Of a DNA stretch of 64,000 nt, positions 33,866-45,537 are shown piece after piece (positions within the stretch are counted from its first letter, which is position 1; each line of letters opens with the position of its first letter). The notes under the pieces are model-generated. The model did no database searches. It was not told where the DNA came from and saw only the letters and a program-made list of their open reading frames with translations. Source of the DNA: a virus; IMG/VR virus record IMGVR_UViG_3300030099_006395, positions 1 to 64,000 of that record. One strand, written 5' to 3'. Made by a program: the position numbers and the translations under genes.

Positions 33866-34669
33866 ATGTCAAAAGAAGCCAATAAAGATACAAAAAAGTC
33901 ACAAGTGGAAGAAATAAATCCAGAAGTGATTGAAGATGAAGAAGCTGACTCACCTTGGTATTATTTTTATTCACAAGGATGTGGTTGGTGTAAAAAATCA
34001 GAACCAATTGTAGATGAACTTAACAAAAACAGAGAAGAAGGTCAAGAAATATTAAAACTTGATTTAGCAGATCCTGATAATAGAGCACTTAACGAAGAAT
34101 TAAAAAAAGAATATAATATTCAATGTGGAACACCATGGTTTATTAATGAAGCTACTGGTAAAGGTATATGTGGATTCAGAGAAAAAGATATCGTTCAAAA
34201 ATGGTTAGATGGTGAAGATATTCCAGCACCACCTAGACCAAAAGGTCCTATTCCAAAACTTCCATTATTAGAAGCTCCTAAAAAAGAAGTTAATAAATGG
34301 AAAAAAGATTATGAAAAATGGTTAAAAGATAATGATCATTTACCTGATAATCAGAAAAAAAGTGTGGATGATATGTTGGCAATGCCTAGACCAAAAACAG
34401 ACCCACCAAAACCTCCAATGGCTAATATGTCAGATGATGAACTTAATAAATGGGCTGAAGAATATGATGAGTGGGCTAAAGTTAATAGTCATCTTCCAAA
34501 TTTACAACCGTCCAAAGTAATTCTACAGAGAATAAAAGGACAATCCCAACAACAAGCTGTCAATCAAGCACCAGCTATAGACAATGCAAAGTTAAATACA
34601 ATGGATGCTAAAATTCAAGCTCTTGAAGTTAAGATTGATAAAATAATGAGTCATTTTGGGGTAAAGTAA
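33866..34669 (+). CDS. Thioredoxin-fold protein with CGWC site and tandem repeats
   Basis: 267 aa. Residues 30-125 form a thioredoxin/glutaredoxin-like domain with active site C39-G-W-C42 (YSQGCGWCKKSEP) and a cis-Pro-type TPWF segment. Two about 45-residue repeats follow, each with a Pro/Lys-rich start and a KW-x-x-x-Y-x-x-W ... HLP core (about 130-175 and 180-225), then a C-terminal coiled coil (IDNAKLNTMDAKIQALEVKIDK). No signal peptide, so it acts in the cytoplasm or in the virion. First gene of a three-gene redox/metal cluster. A disulfide reductase, isomerase or virion structural role are all possible. Confidence 0.75.
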   Translation: MSKEANKDTKKSQVEEINPEVIEDEEADSPWYYFYSQGCGWCKKSEPIVDELNKNREEGQEILKLDLADPDNRALNEELKKEYNIQCGTPWFINEATGKGICGFREKDIVQKWLDGEDIPAPPRPKGPIPKLPLLEAPKKEVNKWKKDYEKWLKDNDHLPDNQKKSVDDMLAMPRPKTDPPKPPMANMSDDELNKWAEEYDEWAKVNSHLPNLQPSKVILQRIKGQSQQQAVNQAPAIDNAKLNTMDAKIQALEVKIDKIMSHFGVK

Positions 34670-35098
34670 ATGGCAAGAAGGCGATTTAAGCCTAAAGTAA
34701 CTAGAGATAGAGAAGCTACTCAAGAAGAATTAAAGTGTATTGAACAAACAGAAGAGATGTTGGCGGGAGAGAAAAAACTTCCACCAGCATCTCAAATGAT
34801 TCGTGATTTAGCTACCACTCATTGGAAAACTTTGGGTGCATGGTTACGAGGTTCACAAACAATAGCTACTCAAGAAGAAGCTGCACGAAGATGGGCAATT
34901 TGTAAAGAATGTCCTCATCTTCTCTACGATGAAGTAAATCCAGACACCAATAAAAAAGATGGTAGATGTACTCATTGTGGTTGTTTTATGAATGTCAAAG
35001 TTCACTATGCAGTTGCTGATTGTCCTATCAGTAAATGGGAAAAAAAATGTGGATGTAATTCGGATTGTAAATGTGTAGATGGAGATTGTGATGAATAA
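34670..35098 (+). CDS. Zinc-ribbon-like cysteine-rich protein, 142 aa
   Basis: Residues 80-125 carry RWAICKECPHL ... RCTHCGCFMNVKVHYAVADCPISKW, a four-to-five cysteine ribbon seen in phage and bacterial small proteins. The C-terminus CGCNSDCKCVDGDC is a second dense cysteine cluster, perhaps a metal site. The basic N-terminus could bind nucleic acid. It lies between two thioredoxin-fold genes and overlaps the start of the second by 8 nt, so they are co-translated. Confidence 0.7.
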   Translation: MARRRFKPKVTRDREATQEELKCIEQTEEMLAGEKKLPPASQMIRDLATTHWKTLGAWLRGSQTIATQEEAARRWAICKECPHLLYDEVNPDTNKKDGRCTHCGCFMNVKVHYAVADCPISKWEKKCGCNSDCKCVDGDCDE

Positions 35099-35423
35099 TT
35101 TAACAAAAGAAAAATTAGATACAATATTTAAAGATGGAAAAAATATAAGTGATAAACCAATTTATATAGATTTTTATGCAGATTGGTGAGGTCCTTGTAG
35201 GATGTTTAGTAGTGTACTAGACGAAGTTTCACCTGAATACAATGATAAGGTGAATATGTATAAAGTAGATATAGAAAAGGAAACAGACTTAGCCATAAAA
35301 TTTGGAGCTAGAGCTCTTCCTTACATGGTTTTTATTCCGAAAGAGGGTGAAATAACAGGAACTCCTGGAGCTTTAAGTAAAGACCAATTAAAATATTATT
35401 TGGATGGATTAATTTCTAAATAA
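35091..35423 (+). CDS. trxA: Thioredoxin with in-frame UGA at active-site Cys (candidate selenoprotein)
   Basis: 110 codons from ATG 35091 (SD GGAG just upstream). Codon 33 is TGA and stands exactly where thioredoxins have the first Cys of WCGPC: the sequence reads FYADW-UGA-GPCRMF. Everything after it is well-formed thioredoxin: cis-Pro segment ALPYMVF and GALSKDQLKYYLDGL, as in E. coli TrxA. TGA acts as an ordinary stop in at least five other genes here, so it is not reassigned. A stem-loop fitting bacterial SECIS rules follows (35204-35222). Most likely a selenocysteine UxxC thioredoxin. The alternatives are a recent nonsense mutation, a sequencing error, or translation from ATG 35202 giving a useless 73-aa fragment. 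Confidence 0.75.
35204..35222 (+). promoter_or_regulatory. bSECIS-like hairpin after the UGA codon
   Basis: GTTTAGTA (35204-35211) pairs with TACTAGAC (35215-35222), 8 bp with one G-U, around a GUG triloop. The loop starts 22 nt after the UGA (35187-35189). Bacterial SECIS models as I recall them need an apical loop roughly 16-37 nt from UGA with a G in its first two positions; both hold. It lies within coding sequence, as bacterial SECIS elements do. Confidence 0.65.
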
Positions 35424-35535: not shown

Positions 35536-36333
35536 ATGGACATGAATGCAATCAAAAACAGGCTAAATCAGCTACAATCAACAACTTCAAATAAAGATAA
35601 CTTTTGGAAACCTGAACCAGGTAAACAAGTAGTTCGTATTGTACCTTATTTACACAACAAAGACAATCCATTTATTGAATTGTTTTTTCACTATAATTTA
35701 GGTAACAATAAAACTTACCTATCACCAGCATCATTTGGTAAACCAGATCCAGTAGCAGAATTTGCTGACAAACTAAAATCAACAGGTAATAAAGACGAAT
35801 GGATTCAAGGTAAAAGACTTGAACCTAAAATGAGAACTTTTGCACCTGTGATTGTTAGAGGTCGTGAATCTGAAGGTGTTAAGTTTTGGGGATTCGGTAA
35901 AACTGTATATCAAGAATTACTTGGTGTAATAGCTGACCCTGATTATGGTGATATTACAGACGCTACCAATGGTAGAGATATCATGATTGAAAGACAGACT
36001 CCTGCTGAGGCTGGAAATCAATATGGTAAAACTACTGTAAGAGTTAAACCTAATCAAACTGCTATGACAGATGATAGTAATTTGATGGAAAGTTTGTTAA
36101 CTAATCAATCTGATTTAACCGAGTTATATACAGAACCATCTTATGATGATTTAAAAGAAGCTCTTCAGAATTATCTAAATCCAAGTGATGATGATACTAC
36201 TGAAACTACTACAACTTCTAATGGTGTAGCAGCTAGTACAGCTCCAACTACAAACACAGGAACTGCAACTACTACAGACACTAAAAAAACAGAAAATGTA
36301 GAAGACGCTTTTGACCAATTATTCAATAGTTAA
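35536..36333 (+). CDS. 32: Single-stranded DNA-binding protein (gp32-like)
   Basis: 265 aa. The N-terminal KNRLNQLQS region (cooperativity arm), the core with FWKPEPGKQVVRIVPY and KFWGFGKTVYQELLGVIADPDYGDITDATNGRDI, and an acidic Thr/Asp-rich tail ending EDAFDQLFNS are standard for gp32. The Cys/His zinc ligands of T4 gp32 are absent, as in many marine relatives. Coats ssDNA and coordinates replication and recombination proteins through the acidic tail. It has its own promoter and structured leader. Confidence 0.92.
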   Translation: MDMNAIKNRLNQLQSTTSNKDNFWKPEPGKQVVRIVPYLHNKDNPFIELFFHYNLGNNKTYLSPASFGKPDPVAEFADKLKSTGNKDEWIQGKRLEPKMRTFAPVIVRGRESEGVKFWGFGKTVYQELLGVIADPDYGDITDATNGRDIMIERQTPAEAGNQYGKTTVRVKPNQTAMTDDSNLMESLLTNQSDLTELYTEPSYDDLKEALQNYLNPSDDDTTETTTTSNGVAASTAPTTNTGTATTTDTKKTENVEDAFDQLFNS

Positions 36334-36442: not shown

Positions 36443-37561
36443 ATGTCAGAAAAAGACAACTTGGCTAGTGTAATAGCTGGTGAATTAAATAAACAATTCA
36501 AACATCAAAAGGTGGCTTATTTTCTTGAAGAAGATGAGAATCCAACAGATGTTACTGATTTTATTTCAACAGGTTCAACGATGTTAGATTTAGCTATTTC
36601 CAATAGACCAAATGGTGGTATTGCCGTAGGTAAAATCACCGAATTAAATGGTTTAGAAGGTAGTGGTAAATCTTTGATAGGTTCTCATCTATTGGCTTCA
36701 ACACAAAAGAAAGATGGTATAGCAGTTTATATAGATACCGAATCAGCAGTATCTCAAGAATTTTTGAGAGCTATTGGTGTGGATACTAAAAATATGTTAT
36801 ATGTACATCTTGAAACTGTTGAAGAGATATTTGATACTATTGAAACAATTGTTACTAAAATCAGAGAATCAAACAAAGATAAGTTAGTTACAATCTTGGT
36901 TGACTCATTAGCAGCTGCTTCTACGAAAGTGGAGATGGATGCTGACTTTGATAAAGATGGTTGGGCAACAGCCAAAGCAATCATCATATCAAAAGCTATG
37001 AGAAAAGTAACACAGATGATAGCACGACAAAAAGTTGCATTGGTTTTCACAAATCAATTACGACAAAAGTTGGGTGTAATGTTTGGAGATCCTTGGACTA
37101 CTTCAGGTGGTAAGGCTCTACCATTTCATTCATCAACTCGTGTTAGATTCAAAAACGCAGGACAAATCAAAGATGGTAGTAAGAATACTATCGGTATTAA
37201 GATAAAAGGACAAGTGATTAAGAATCGTCTTGGTCCTCCAATGAGAACTGCAGAGTTTCCATTATATTTTGATACAGGTATTGCCGACTACGATAGTTGG
37301 TTAACTGTGATGAAAGAACATAAAATCTGTAAAGTTGGTGGTTCGTGGTATACATTACCACAAGTTGATACTGAAACTGGTGAATTAATTAAAGAACACA
37401 AATTTCAATCAAAAGATTTTGAAGAATTAATGAATACTAATGATGAATTAAGAGAGTATTGTTATCAACAAATCTGTGAAGCTTGTATTCTTAAATATGA
37501 TTCTAAAGAATTAGGTATTGATGATGTAGAAGAAACTGATGAGGTAGTAGATGAACTCTAA
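36443..37561 (+). CDS. uvsX: RecA-like recombinase (UvsX)
   Basis: 372 aa. Walker A GLEGSGKS (70-77), Walker B TILVDSLAA, and a downstream VFTNQLRQK segment typical of RecA/UvsX loop 2. The length is close to T4 UvsX (391 aa). Forms filaments on ssDNA for strand exchange and recombination-dependent replication, and displaces gp32. It follows the gp32 gene and has an SD (AGGAG). No UvsY gene was recognised in the window. Confidence 0.93.
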   Translation: MSEKDNLASVIAGELNKQFKHQKVAYFLEEDENPTDVTDFISTGSTMLDLAISNRPNGGIAVGKITELNGLEGSGKSLIGSHLLASTQKKDGIAVYIDTESAVSQEFLRAIGVDTKNMLYVHLETVEEIFDTIETIVTKIRESNKDKLVTILVDSLAAASTKVEMDADFDKDGWATAKAIIISKAMRKVTQMIARQKVALVFTNQLRQKLGVMFGDPWTTSGGKALPFHSSTRVRFKNAGQIKDGSKNTIGIKIKGQVIKNRLGPPMRTAEFPLYFDTGIADYDSWLTVMKEHKICKVGGSWYTLPQVDTETGELIKEHKFQSKDFEELMNTNDELREYCYQQICEACILKYDSKELGIDDVEETDEVVDEL

Positions 37562-40343: not shown

Positions 40344-40674
40344 ATTAGATAAAACAGATAGTAAAGTAATACATTCAAATGAAACATATGATGTTATAGA
40401 TAATACAAATCTAAATAATCTTATAGTTTCAAAAACTATATTACATGAGGGAAAAGAAACTGGTGGTCACAATCACAAAGGACAAGAAGAAGTTTATATA
40501 TTTACAGAGGGTTCTGGTGTGATGCAAATAGATGATGAAAAGTTTTTAGTTACGAAAGGTGATATAGTATTAATACCAGATGGAGCATTCCATAAAGTAT
40601 TTAACACAAGTAACTATAAGGCAAACAATCCTTTAATATTTGTATGTGTATTTGATGGTGGGAGAAATCATTAA
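40333..40674 (+). CDS. Cupin-domain protein, 113 aa
   Basis: Start chosen at ATG 40333 (MKIKLDKTDSK), downstream of a TTG. The cupin motifs are clear: GGHNHKGQEEVYIFTEGSG (motif 1, two His and Glu as metal ligands) and GDIVLIPDGAFHKVFN (motif 2 with His). Single-domain cupins bind metal and act as isomerases, dioxygenases or sensors. The next gene overlaps its end by 20 nt. Substrate unknown. Confidence 0.8.
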   Translation: MKIKLDKTDSKVIHSNETYDVIDNTNLNNLIVSKTILHEGKETGGHNHKGQEEVYIFTEGSGVMQIDDEKFLVTKGDIVLIPDGAFHKVFNTSNYKANNPLIFVCVFDGGRNH

Positions 40675-41299
40675 AGTATCTGATTTTATAATAGAACCTG
40701 TACCTCGTAGTGCTATTCAATCATTTGTACATAAATGGCATTATTCACATGATACTAATGGTGTACAACAAACACAATGTTTTGCTTTGTTTGATGACAA
40801 TAGAATGATAGGTGCTATGATATATGCTTTACCATCCATGAAATCAACAGCAGCAAAATATAATCCAGATAATCCTGATAGGTGTTGGGAGTTACGAAGA
40901 TTATGTTGTATTGATGATACACCAACAAACACAGAAAGTTATTTTATAGGGCAGACTTTAAGGTGGATAAGACAAAATACTGATATAGAAGTTATTGTAT
41001 CTTATGCTGATTTAGAACAAGGGCATGAAGGAGTCATTTATAAAGCCACTAACTTTCATTATTTAGGCCAAAGTGGTGGTGGTAGAAATTTAATGGTAGA
41101 TGGAAAAAAGTTTCACGCTAGGTCTTTAAATCAAAAAGAAAAACCCTATGGTAGGGATTTAAAAAGAAGATGGGAAAACAAAGAGGGGCATAGTTTTTGG
41201 GATTCAAAACAAGATATGTATTTTGTAAATACAAAACCAAAAAATATCTATGTTTATTACTTAAATAAAAAAATAAAAAAGAAATTACTTAAAAAATGA
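40655..41299 (+). CDS. Mom-like DNA base-modifying acetyltransferase-fold protein (1)
   Basis: 214 aa from ATG 40655. HKWHYSHDTNGVQQTQCFALF, IGAMIYALPS, CWELRRLCCIDDTPTNTES and VSYADLEQGHEGVIYKATNFHYLG follow the phage Mu Mom / GNAT-fold layout (L-x-R-L ... NTES ... S-Y-A-D-x-x-x-G-H-x-G-x-x-Y-x-A-x-N). Mom adds a carbamoylmethyl group to adenine and protects DNA from restriction. A basic C-terminus (KKIKKKLLKK) could bind DNA. A second divergent copy is at 52196. Confidence 0.75.
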   Translation: MVGEIIKVSDFIIEPVPRSAIQSFVHKWHYSHDTNGVQQTQCFALFDDNRMIGAMIYALPSMKSTAAKYNPDNPDRCWELRRLCCIDDTPTNTESYFIGQTLRWIRQNTDIEVIVSYADLEQGHEGVIYKATNFHYLGQSGGGRNLMVDGKKFHARSLNQKEKPYGRDLKRRWENKEGHSFWDSKQDMYFVNTKPKNIYVYYLNKKIKKKLLKK

Positions 41300-41356: not shown

Positions 41357-43372
41357 ATGGATTATAAGAGATTTTCACTGTCAGATAATTTTATAGATGG
41401 TTACAAAAGAAAAAAACCCCCTTTCGGATTCAATGGATTAGGGGAACTTGTCTATATGAGAACTTATTCTCGTATAAAAGAAGACGGAAAAAACGAAATG
41501 TGGTGGGAAACTTGTCAACGAGTAGTTGAAGGTACTTACAACATGCAAAAAAAATGGATAGAATCACACCATTTAGGGTGGAATGCGTGGCAAGCTCAAA
41601 GGTCAGCTCAAGAAATGTACGACCGAATGTTTAATATGAAGTTTTTGCCACCTGGCCGAGGTCTATGGGCTATGGGAACACCAATCACAGAAGAACGAGG
41701 TTTATACGCCGCCCTTAACAATTGTGCATTTGTATCAACTGATAATCTCAAAGAGGATTTATCAAAACCATTCTGTTTCTTAATGGATGCTTCAATGGTT
41801 GGAGTTGGTGTAGGATTTGATACAAAGGGTGCAGAACAATTCGTAGTCAGAGGTCCTAAAACAGATAGAGAAACAGAAACATATGTAATACCTGATACAA
41901 GAGAAGGTTGGGTAGAATCTGTAAGACGATTATTAGATTCATACTTTCTTGGTATAACAGGTGTTAATTTTGATTATTCTAAAATTAGACCAGAGGGTGC
42001 ACCAATCAAAGGTTTTGGTGGTGTATCGAGTGGATACAAACCATTAGAAGAAGTACACAAATCTGTATCAGAATGTTTAGATAAAAACATAGGTTCACCA
42101 ATATCAATAACCACAATCGTAGACATAATGAATTTGATTGGTAAATGTGTTGTAGCAGGTAATGTTAGAAGAACTGCTGAAATAGTGTTTGGTGATCCTG
42201 AATCAGAAGAATATATTAATTTAAAAAATTATAAAAAGAACCCTCATAGAGAAATGTATGGTTGGACATCTAACAATTCAGTATTTGCTGAGTTAGGACA
42301 AGACTATACAGATATAGCAGAAAGAATTATAGACAATGGAGAACCAGGACTTGCGTGGTTAGATAATATGAAACACTATTCAAGAATGAAGAATGGTGGT
42401 GATGATAAAGACCATAGAGTTGCAGGTGGTAATCCTTGTCTTGAACAATCATTGGAATCATATGAATTATGTTGTTTGGTAGAAACATTTCCACATAATC
42501 ATAAAGATTTAGATGATTATTTAACAACATTAAAATACGCATATCTATATGCAAAAACTGTTACACTTGGAAAAACACATTGGCCTGAAACCAATCGTGT
42601 AATGTTGAGAAACAGAAGGATAGGTTGTAGTGTGAGTGGTATTGCACAATTCATTACACATAGAGGACAAGGTGAATTGAGAAATTGGTTGGAATCAGGT
42701 TATGATAAACTACAAGAGTATGATAAAAACTATTCAGATTGGTTTGCAGTACCTCGTAGTATAAAAACTACATCAGTAAAACCAAGTGGTACAGTTTCAT
42801 TGTTGGCTGGCTCTACACCAGGTCTACATTATCCAGAAAGTAGGTTCTATATCAGAAGAATTAGGTTATCGGTGAACTCACCATTAATCAAACCTTTAGA
42901 AAAAGCTGGTTATAAAATTGAACCTGCATTTGGTAGTGAAGATTCAACAGTAGTAATCGAAGTACCTGTAGATGTAGGTGAAGGAATCAGAACAGTGAGT
43001 GAAGTTCCAATGTGGGAACAAATGGCATTAGCAGCATTTATGCAAAGGTATTGGGCGGATAATCAAGTAAGTTGTACGGTTACATTTGACCCTGAAAAAG
43101 AAGGTCCTATGATAGCGACAGCACTTAACTATTTTCAATATCAGTTAAAAGGTATCTCATTCTTACCTAAATTAGAATTAGGTGCTTATAAACAAATGCC
43201 ATATGAAGAAATATCTGAAAAAAAATATAACGAAATGGTAAAGAAATTAAGTTTCTTATCATTCAGACAGGTAAAAGGTAATGAAGCTGAGATTGATAAA
43301 TTCTGTAATAATGACACTTGTGAAATTGATTTGGAAGCAATTAAAGAAACTCAAGAAATGGAGAACGCATAA
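41357..43372 (+). CDS. nrdJ: Adenosylcobalamin-dependent ribonucleotide reductase (class II)
   Basis: 671 aa, single chain. LPPGRGLWAMGT and NNCAFVST (Cys123, redox cysteine), NPCLEQS with Cys361 as the probable thiyl radical site and Glu363, ELCCL, and KPSGTVSLLAGSTPGLHYPES near the substrate site match monomeric B12-dependent ribonucleoside-triphosphate reductases. It makes dNTPs for replication without oxygen or a second subunit, but needs host cobalamin. T4 uses class Ia instead. No NrdA/NrdB or B12 riboswitch was seen. The C-terminal NDTCEID lacks a full CxxC swinging pair. Confidence 0.92.
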   Translation: MDYKRFSLSDNFIDGYKRKKPPFGFNGLGELVYMRTYSRIKEDGKNEMWWETCQRVVEGTYNMQKKWIESHHLGWNAWQAQRSAQEMYDRMFNMKFLPPGRGLWAMGTPITEERGLYAALNNCAFVSTDNLKEDLSKPFCFLMDASMVGVGVGFDTKGAEQFVVRGPKTDRETETYVIPDTREGWVESVRRLLDSYFLGITGVNFDYSKIRPEGAPIKGFGGVSSGYKPLEEVHKSVSECLDKNIGSPISITTIVDIMNLIGKCVVAGNVRRTAEIVFGDPESEEYINLKNYKKNPHREMYGWTSNNSVFAELGQDYTDIAERIIDNGEPGLAWLDNMKHYSRMKNGGDDKDHRVAGGNPCLEQSLESYELCCLVETFPHNHKDLDDYLTTLKYAYLYAKTVTLGKTHWPETNRVMLRNRRIGCSVSGIAQFITHRGQGELRNWLESGYDKLQEYDKNYSDWFAVPRSIKTTSVKPSGTVSLLAGSTPGLHYPESRFYIRRIRLSVNSPLIKPLEKAGYKIEPAFGSEDSTVVIEVPVDVGEGIRTVSEVPMWEQMALAAFMQRYWADNQVSCTVTFDPEKEGPMIATALNYFQYQLKGISFLPKLELGAYKQMPYEEISEKKYNEMVKKLSFLSFRQVKGNEAEIDKFCNNDTCEIDLEAIKETQEMENA

Positions 43373-44074: not shown

Positions 44075-44222
44075 AGGAACACCTGAACAATATTTACAGA
44101 TGTTTTTGTCTGAACAAATTATGCCAAATGAATGGTATAGGATATTAAAAGAAAGACCTGATGTAAATAAATTATATCAAAAATACCTGGAGAAAAGAAA
44201 TGTGGAACATAAAACTAATTAA
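44067..44222 (+). CDS. Small hypothetical protein, 51 aa
   Basis: ATG 44067 with SD (GGAGG) inside the end of the cytidylyltransferase gene. The sequence (SRGTPEQYLQMFLSEQIMP...) is helical with no known motif. Its stop overlaps the start of the trypsin gene by 23 nt. Accepted because of the good SD and because it fills the gap exactly. Confidence 0.5.
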   Translation: MSRGTPEQYLQMFLSEQIMPNEWYRILKERPDVNKLYQKYLEKRNVEHKTN

Positions 44223-45537
44223 AAATATATTTAAAGTATTTTGTTTACTTGGATTAATACTATTATTTTGTAATAGTTGTCAAGATTCAAATCCAATGAC
44301 AATGGAAGAACCTTGTTGTGTGAATCCTCCTGATTTAGATTTAAGGTCTGAAGAACAACATACGGTGATGCCTGGTGAACTACCACAACCAATGATTGTC
44401 GGTGGTGAGGAAGTAAACCCAGCTTGTCCTAATTGTAAATATGATTTCATGGTTTCATTACAAACAGATGGTTGGTTTGGTGGACACTTTTGTGGTGGTT
44501 CATTGGTTAGAGAAGATTGGGTTGTGACAGCTGCTCATTGTGTTCAAGGTACTTCACCAAATAGTATTGAAGTGGTTATCGGATTACATAATGTAAACGG
44601 AACTACAGGACAACAAACAAGAAATGTATCGGAAATAATCATACATCCACAATATAGTGGTAACTCTTTAAATAACGATTATGCTCTGTTGAGATTATCA
44701 TCACCAATCACAGATTTTGAACCGATTAAATTATGTACAGATACTGCACACGATGAAGAACCTGTAATGTCAACAACAATGGGTTGGGGAGCAATATATA
44801 GTGGTGGTCCTTCATCAAGTGTATTACTTGAAGTAGATGTACCCATTGATGATTCTTGTGGTAACTATTCTAATTCAGATATAACAAACAATATGGTATG
44901 TGCTGGTGATGGAAATGGTGGTGAAGATTCTTGTCAAGGAGATAGTGGAGGCCCTTTGATTATGACAAACTCTGATGGTGAGTATGAGTTAATCGGAATA
45001 GTAAGTTGGGGTTATGGTTGTGCTGAAGCTCAGTATCCGGGTGTGTACTCTAAAATTCATAGTAGATTAAATTGGTTCTTTAGTTACATTGGAGAACCTG
45101 AAGAAGATTTTGTAGTAGATTTATATGGTGATGTTAACTTTGATAATTCATTGGATATAACAGATGTTATATTATTGATTAACTTTGTTTTAGGACAAAC
45201 ACCAACAGAAGAGGAATCATTAACTGCTGATATGAATCAAGATGGTATTGTAAATATACTTGATGTGATATTGTTAGTTAATGAAATATTAGGAACAACA
45301 TTTAGTCAATCTGTACAATGGTTGGAAGAAAACTTTCCATCATTAAAAACAAAAGAAAGATTAAGTAAATTAGATAAATCACAATTTTTTGCAAAAAGAA
45401 ACAATTGTATTCAATTACAAAAAGAATTTGATATCTTACTAAAAGAATATGAAGAATTAGAAACAAGATATAGATTACTACAGAAATTAGATTTAGATAA
45501 ACAAAAAATTATAAAAAAATTATCGGAGGAAAAATGA
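44200..45537 (+). CDS. Trypsin-like serine protease lipoprotein with dockerin-type repeats
   Basis: 445 aa. The N-terminus has a membrane signal with a lipobox ending at Cys27 (LILLFCNSC). IVGGEE (66-71) is the chymotrypsin-fold N-terminus, followed by TAAHC (His113), NNDYALLRL (Asp160) and CQGDSGGP (Ser249). Asp243, six residues before Ser249, predicts Arg/Lys specificity. Disulfide cysteines are conserved. Residues 309-365 are two dockerin-type calcium repeats (GDVNFDNSLDITDVILLINFVLG and a second copy), then a coiled coil. It would be exported and lipid-anchored, an unusual phage gene probably taken from a host. Residue 65 is Met, not Arg, so activation differs from trypsinogen. Confidence 0.88.
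   Translation: MWNIKLIKNIFKVFCLLGLILLFCNSCQDSNPMTMEEPCCVNPPDLDLRSEEQHTVMPGELPQPMIVGGEEVNPACPNCKYDFMVSLQTDGWFGGHFCGGSLVREDWVVTAAHCVQGTSPNSIEVVIGLHNVNGTTGQQTRNVSEIIIHPQYSGNSLNNDYALLRLSSPITDFEPIKLCTDTAHDEEPVMSTTMGWGAIYSGGPSSSVLLEVDVPIDDSCGNYSNSDITNNMVCAGDGNGGEDSCQGDSGGPLIMTNSDGEYELIGIVSWGYGCAEAQYPGVYSKIHSRLNWFFSYIGEPEEDFVVDLYGDVNFDNSLDITDVILLINFVLGQTPTEEESLTADMNQDGIVNILDVILLVNEILGTTFSQSVQWLEENFPSLKTKERLSKLDKSQFFAKRNNCIQLQKEFDILLKEYEELETRYRLLQKLDLDKQKIIKKLSEEK

Follow-up and report, generated by a model that had tools for sequence, protein, structure and literature searches.

The window analysed here, 64,000 nucleotides of a 113,475-bp virus record (G000), contains a complete 110-codon thioredoxin gene with a single interruption, a UGA at the codon for the first active-site Cys (W-U-G-P-C). 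Read across this UGA, the translation is MNNLTKEKLDTIFKDGKNISDKPIYIDFYADW-U-GPCRMF...GLISK, closed by a TAA at 35421-35423. The first 8 nt of the gene overlap the upstream gene, and the gene is followed by genes for gp32-type and UvsX proteins and, about 6 kb downstream, by a class II ribonucleotide reductase (RNR) gene with the Pfam RNR_Alpha and RNR-II insertion domains (Table 1). Other genes were recorded in passing. Two genes upstream (33866-34669) a second, weak thioredoxin-like domain has a CGWC motif as well as a long tail rich in Pro and Lys. The phage genome has two Mom-family (DNA modification) genes, one in the window (40640-41299) and one at L052:9340-10062 with a DruA-like fragment beside it, and it encodes a protein in which a trypsin-family protease is joined to a type I dockerin domain (window 44200-45537).

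Table 1. Features of the candidate selenothioredoxin locus and associated genes (window positions unless a record is named)
Feature	Position	Strand	Remarks
Upstream neighbor, 142 aa, Cys-rich	34670..35098	+	phrog_13558; adjoins the thioredoxin gene in all relatives tested, including L060 and L061
Candidate selenothioredoxin CDS	35091..35423	+	110 codons, predicted Sec at codon 33, stop TAA
In-frame UGA (putative Sec codon), first active-site Cys	35187..35189	+	UGA shared by 24 distinct sequences; syntenic L060 and L061 have TGT
Putative bSECIS apical stem-loop	35204..35222	+	GUUUAGUA-GUG-UACUAGAC, from folding; relatives have TTGAGC-AGGT-GCTCAA at the same place
Putative SECIS apical loop, GUG	35212..35214	+	22 nt after the UGA; within the published spacing rule
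gp32-type ssDNA-binding protein, downstream neighbor	35536..36333	+	conserved next to the thioredoxin gene
UvsX	36443-37561		follows the gp32-type gene
Adenosylcobalamin-dependent ribonucleoside-triphosphate reductase (class II RNR)	41357..43372	+	TIGR02505, 355.9 bits (cut-off 340)
tRNA-Sec	G000:103633-103727		outside the window; Rfam RF01852, 69.4 bits (cut-off 47); ARAGORN SeC(tca)

The thioredoxin gene and its relatives

The first-pass annotation had described a thioredoxin frame broken only by this TGA and thioredoxin-like to its C-terminus, and both points held up. The product matches the Pfam Thioredoxin family (PF00085) at 6e-22 and the sequences of 295 solved structures at E<1e-5, with Thioredoxin 3hxs as the top match; against the NCBIfam equivalog TIGR01068 it scores 88.8, slightly under the cut-off of 96.8. 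In an AlphaFold model made from phage homologues (pLDDT 94.3), residue 33 is predicted to immediately precede a helix spanning residues 34-50, which is thioredoxin-like. The product would thus combine the thioredoxin fold of PF00085 with a W-C/U-G-P-C active site. TGA had also been called a normal stop in at least five other genes; it ends 14 of the phage genome's 121 ORFs that are 80 aa or longer and is therefore not reassigned, which led us to dismiss a general code change (TGA as Trp or Cys). We also rejected an internal start at 35202, which would give a product without the active site and leave the conservation 5' of the UGA unexplained. When other in-frame TGA candidates were listed across the phage genome, only the thioredoxin resembled a conserved protein.

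Scans of IMG/VR returned 24 further rows in which this thioredoxin has UGA at the corresponding codon. With the window this makes 25 rows and, after subtraction of one near-duplicate, 24 distinct UGA sequences, the window counted among them. Where measured, their protein identity to the window copy is about 50-92%. A homologue search had been named as a check on the original proposal, and a base-call error as something that would overturn it. In all of the UGA relatives the thioredoxin frame runs on, intact, to its natural C-terminal end, and the occurrence of the codon in 24 distinct sequences excludes a miscalled base. The coding sequence is under purifying selection both before and after the UGA. 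Downstream of it, dN/dS is 0.07-0.29 in most close pairs (0.10 between the window and its relative L001), with one outlier pair, L017/L026, at 0.56. The order 142-aa gene, thioredoxin, gp32, UvsX is the same wherever the UGA contigs extend far enough. INPHARED holds no member of the UGA clade, every match there falling below 60% identity, and the closest isolated phages by capsid and polymerase, at about 50% identity, infect Flavobacterium and Microcystis.

Homologues without the UGA have Cys at exactly this codon. The codon is TGT in L060 and L061, which are syntenic with the UGA contigs, and in L063 and L064, and TGT or TGC in more than 60 other phage thioredoxins. An in-frame UGA that aligns with Cys in at least two homologues and conserved coding sequence after it are two comparative marks of a bacterial selenoprotein gene, and this gene shows both.

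The hairpin downstream of the UGA

The published model of the bacterial SECIS element (bSECIS) has a loop of 3-9 nt with a G within its first two positions, a stem of 4-16 bp, a spacing of 16-37 nt and a minimum free energy at or below -7.5 kcal/mol (PMC13188914). The 8-bp, GUG-loop hairpin that the first-pass annotation proposed as such an element (9 bp counting one more U-G pair) has a geometry within these rules. So do the hairpins of 23 of the 24 UGA sequences, with the loop at +22, the remaining sequence (L025) having one stem mismatch. Folded from the UGA to +57, all 24 reach -7.5 to -15.8 kcal/mol; folded from +1 to +45, some lie above the -7.5 limit, so the energy result hinges on the stretch folded. 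The window gives -10.2. The hairpins by themselves give about -4 to -9 kcal/mol.

Two forms of the hairpin were found. The 20 sequences outside the window clade have TTGAGC-AGGT-GCTCAA or a variant; those of the window clade have GTTTAGTA-GTG-TACTAGAC, with a GTA loop in one member. Relative to the majority form, the window clade has its central stem pairs changed on both sides and its register shifted by one base; because of this shift, the window-clade register fails when applied to all sequences (54.9% paired). In the majority register 84.8% of column pairs are paired, compared with 31-44% in slid controls and with none of 500 shuffles reaching the observed value. Covariation is modest, with two pairs changed on both sides and a covariation score matched by 14 of 500 shuffles. 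Across the family the loops are AGGU, AGUU, GGUC or GUG; cellular WUGPC genes, too, have loops of AGUU, GUU and GGUC. In L149, where two residues are altered (QV to RS), the loop still contains GGU.

Taken alone, the window hairpin is marginal against chance (z -1.97; 11 of 200 shuffles), and 5.6% of synonymous recodings reach its energy. The corresponding share is 1.5-5.6% within the window clade and at most 0.4% outside it. The claim that a chance nonsense codon is unlikely here was nevertheless sound, its decisive support being comparative: the 24 UGA sequences themselves, the codon bias in the hairpin and the energies of UGA versus Cys genes. Among the UGA sequences, the hairpin codons are GAG in 18/18 (19% in the genome), CAG in 19/19 (13%), GTG in 18/21 (11%) and CTC in 19/24 (1.3%), while in most other conserved columns the codons match the usage of this 31% GC genome. 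The 23-nt hairpin segment has a median energy of -6.75 kcal/mol in the 24 UGA sequences and of -1.0 in 67 Cys phage thioredoxins (p = 7.7e-13). Most Cys phage thioredoxins lack a comparable hairpin.

In SECIS elements of the E. coli fdhF type, a bulged U lies a few bp below an apical loop of the GGU type. The majority phage hairpin, GU-U-UGAGC-AGGU-GCUCA-AC, likewise has a GGU-type loop above a bulged U. However, the phage element is shorter than that of fdhF and lies in an AT-rich context, and in the window clade the loop is GUG and the bulge is missing.

The two syntenic Cys homologues bear on the history of this element. In the tree, L060 branches off first and L061 next, both directly outside the UGA clade; the fork parting L061 from that clade has a support of 87/91. 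The L061 gene (6067-6384) encodes WCAPC and retains a hairpin, TCAAGC-AGGT-GCTTGA, at +22; L060 has no comparable hairpin. The simplest reading, and a likely one, is that Sec was gained once in the phage lineage and reverted to Cys in L061, whose hairpin would be a fossil SECIS. Alternatively, the hairpin may be older than the UGA in this lineage.

A phage tRNA-Sec and the share of the host

Beyond the window, the same virus record contains a tRNA-Sec gene (Table 1). Its product has the UCA anticodon, an 8-bp acceptor and 5-bp T stem (13 bp), a 6-bp D stem, a long variable arm, G73 and an encoded GCCA, and thus every tRNA-Sec feature of RF01852 that was checked. The gene is flanked by continuous phage DNA, and five related contigs (L381-L385) match around the slot, with other small cargo or nothing there and with no tRNA-Sec. 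The gene is therefore phage-borne and was probably acquired recently. No tRNA-Sec was found in the other contigs with the UGA thioredoxin, which are mostly short fragments that rarely reach that region. A pattern scan of viral contigs found no close copy of the phage tRNA, and blastn against INPHARED gave no match.

A more general scan for UCA-anticodon tRNAs gave many loci, which we set aside as evidence. Some resemble cellular tRNA-Sec and are possibly prophage insertion sites; others lie in phage tRNA arrays and have long variable arms yet are not tRNA-Sec. For example, L194, L209, L217, L239 and similar contigs have UCA-anticodon tRNAs with long variable arms, several within phage tRNA arrays, that ARAGORN calls SeC and whose acceptor and D arms are unlike those of tRNA-Sec. 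Annotated phage tRNA-Sec genes may be such UCA tRNAs and merit re-checking. Two further RNAs were observed in this genome. Directly 3' of the tRNA-Sec (G000:103734-103835; L283:1735-1836) lies a structured, conserved RNA of about 102 nt, which also precedes the matched gene in L381, L382 and L385. Among only four sequences, 11 of its 30 consensus pairs show compensatory change; it has no Rfam match at the gathering threshold and is possibly a new phage RNA. A phage tmRNA (G000:92044-92387; L050) lies beside a tRNA-Arg and has the tag GNEYQYMAVA, and L383 and L384 also have a phage tmRNA.

The tblastn searches with E. coli SelA and SelB and with Neomarinimicrobiota SelB found neither protein in the phage, and the same E. 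coli queries recover SelA and SelB side by side in a Neomarinimicrobiota locus (G215). Dependence on the host is therefore expected for both. The first-pass annotation had expected the phage to rely on host SelB and host tRNA-Sec. The SelB part stands; the tRNA part does not, since a phage with its own tRNA-Sec need not use that of its host.

As to which host this may be, we compared the phage tRNA-Sec with those of Neomarinimicrobiota and Planctomycetota. The nearest are from two Neomarinimicrobiota genomes, G215 and G231 (79% and 77% over 84 nt; 68 and 63.5 bits), whereas the best among 149 Planctomycetota genomes scores 54.5 bits. In six of the seven Neomarinimicrobiota genomes tested selB is above the cut-off, and in G215 a SelA match lies beside it. 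These data are weakly suggestive of a Neomarinimicrobiota host.

Readings of the UGA and their biological meaning

We consider it very probable that 35091-35423 is a genuine phage selenoprotein gene encoding a UxxC thioredoxin, a reading that comes from sequence comparison. Given the UGA, the conserved hairpin and, in one member, a matching tRNA-Sec, this family of T4-like viruses very probably makes a selenium-containing protein. In the mechanism that we propose, a ribosome arriving at the UGA would be met by host SelB with Sec-tRNA-Sec, host- or phage-encoded, bound to the hairpin. SelB would insert selenocysteine as residue 33, and translation would proceed to residue 110. Sec33 would be the attacking nucleophile of the thioredoxin redox pair that it forms with Cys36. 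The phage would contribute the mRNA, the SECIS and, in the G000 genome, the tRNA-Sec, and the host would contribute SelA, SelB, SelD, SerRS and thioredoxin reductase. Class II RNR enzymes need a dithiol reductant, and thioredoxin is the usual one; consequently the phage's own B12-dependent enzyme is the most likely client, and the selenothioredoxin would probably serve as its reductant, in support of dNTP supply for phage replication.

Other explanations of the UGA must be weighed against the same data. The codon might be read by near-cognate suppression (e.g., as Trp) with selenium uninvolved; the hairpin would then stimulate readthrough in a general way. A hairpin 3' of a stop codon can increase readthrough in some viruses, and most of the relatives' contigs have no visible tRNA-Sec. 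However, the UGA stands in for the catalytic Cys only, the codon being TGT in syntenic homologues, and Trp at that position would abolish the redox site. The hairpin agrees with bSECIS in loop sequence and spacing, and the G000 genome has an intact tRNA-Sec and uses TGA elsewhere as a normal stop. We therefore regard suppression as very unlikely. Slimmer still is the chance that tRNA-Sec or a variant UCA tRNA brings Ser or Cys to the codon in a host without SelA or selenium. UCA-anticodon tRNAs with long variable arms do occur in other viral contigs, but the phage tRNA agrees with tRNA-Sec in all features checked, Ser at residue 33 would be inactive, and TGA is not generally reassigned. Least probable, to the point of being already refuted, is a nonsense mutation or sequencing error in an ordinary thioredoxin. 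The marginal statistics of a single hairpin would be consistent with such decay or error, and the comparative data contradict it: 24 distinct sequences have the UGA, dN/dS after it is low, and the RNA element is under selection. Selenocysteine insertion remains our preferred reading.

Sec thioredoxins with a UxxC motif are an established bacterial selenoprotein family (PMC1088965, PMC2398784, PMC13188914). The bacterial forms, such as those of the Sargasso Sea and GOS surveys (PMC1088965, PMC2398784) and the UxxC Trx entry in the 2026 catalogue (PMC13188914), likewise have the thioredoxin fold of PF00085, a UGA at the first Cys, a bSECIS within the coding sequence and Cys homologues. In our own genome scan, many UGA thioredoxin-like genes were found in Planctomycetota, Melainabacteria and Neomarinimicrobiota. 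In contrast to the bacterial forms, the phage gene stands in a T4-like gp32/UvsX replication cluster, belongs to a viral clade of single origin and is accompanied, in one genome, by a phage tRNA-Sec. The phage Cys thioredoxins (phrog_22) share its fold and role class but have Cys for Sec, and among those examined only L061 has a comparable hairpin. Phages are not mentioned as a source of selenoproteins in the 2005 and 2008 marine surveys or in the 2022 and 2026 reviews, and the literature searched, mainly open-access journal papers, contained no description of a phage selenoprotein. A selenocysteine tRNA has been annotated in huge phages (PMC10747093) and in Salmonella phage SSBI34 (PMC8879037), where, in the passages concerned, possible selenoproteins were inferred from the tRNA alone; here there is a UGA gene and a SECIS with evolutionary support, and the tRNA lies above the Rfam tRNA-Sec cut-off. 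What appears to be new is the phage lineage together with its tRNA-Sec, the UxxC thioredoxin itself being already known in bacteria.

A second case may exist. A 115,903-bp contig (L148/L492) from a different T4-like phage, with rIIA, UvsX, a DnaB-like helicase and a class Ia RNR, encodes a lipoprotein-type thioredoxin (L492:10001-10342) with WUGPC and a 6-bp hairpin, loop AGUU at +22. Its Cys relatives have TGT or TGC. As this is a single sequence whose total folding energy is weak (-4.9), and the contig yielded no tRNA-Sec, we treat it as a lead. Only tentatively, and short of an even chance, do we suggest that phage selenoproteins are a recurrent viral strategy, with at least two unrelated T4-like lineages, Sec/Cys interchange as in L061 and tRNA-Sec cargo that secures the decoding of UGA.

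If the main reading is true, an auxiliary redox gene of phages uses the 21st amino acid, and part of the machinery that decodes it is brought along by the phage. Their host range would be tied to host SelA/SelB and selenium supply, and viruses would provide a route by which selenoprotein genes and tRNA-Sec move between bacteria. UGA-containing phage genes would be misannotated as truncated or missing, and some of the marine Sec thioredoxins that earlier surveys credited to bacteria could come from viruses.
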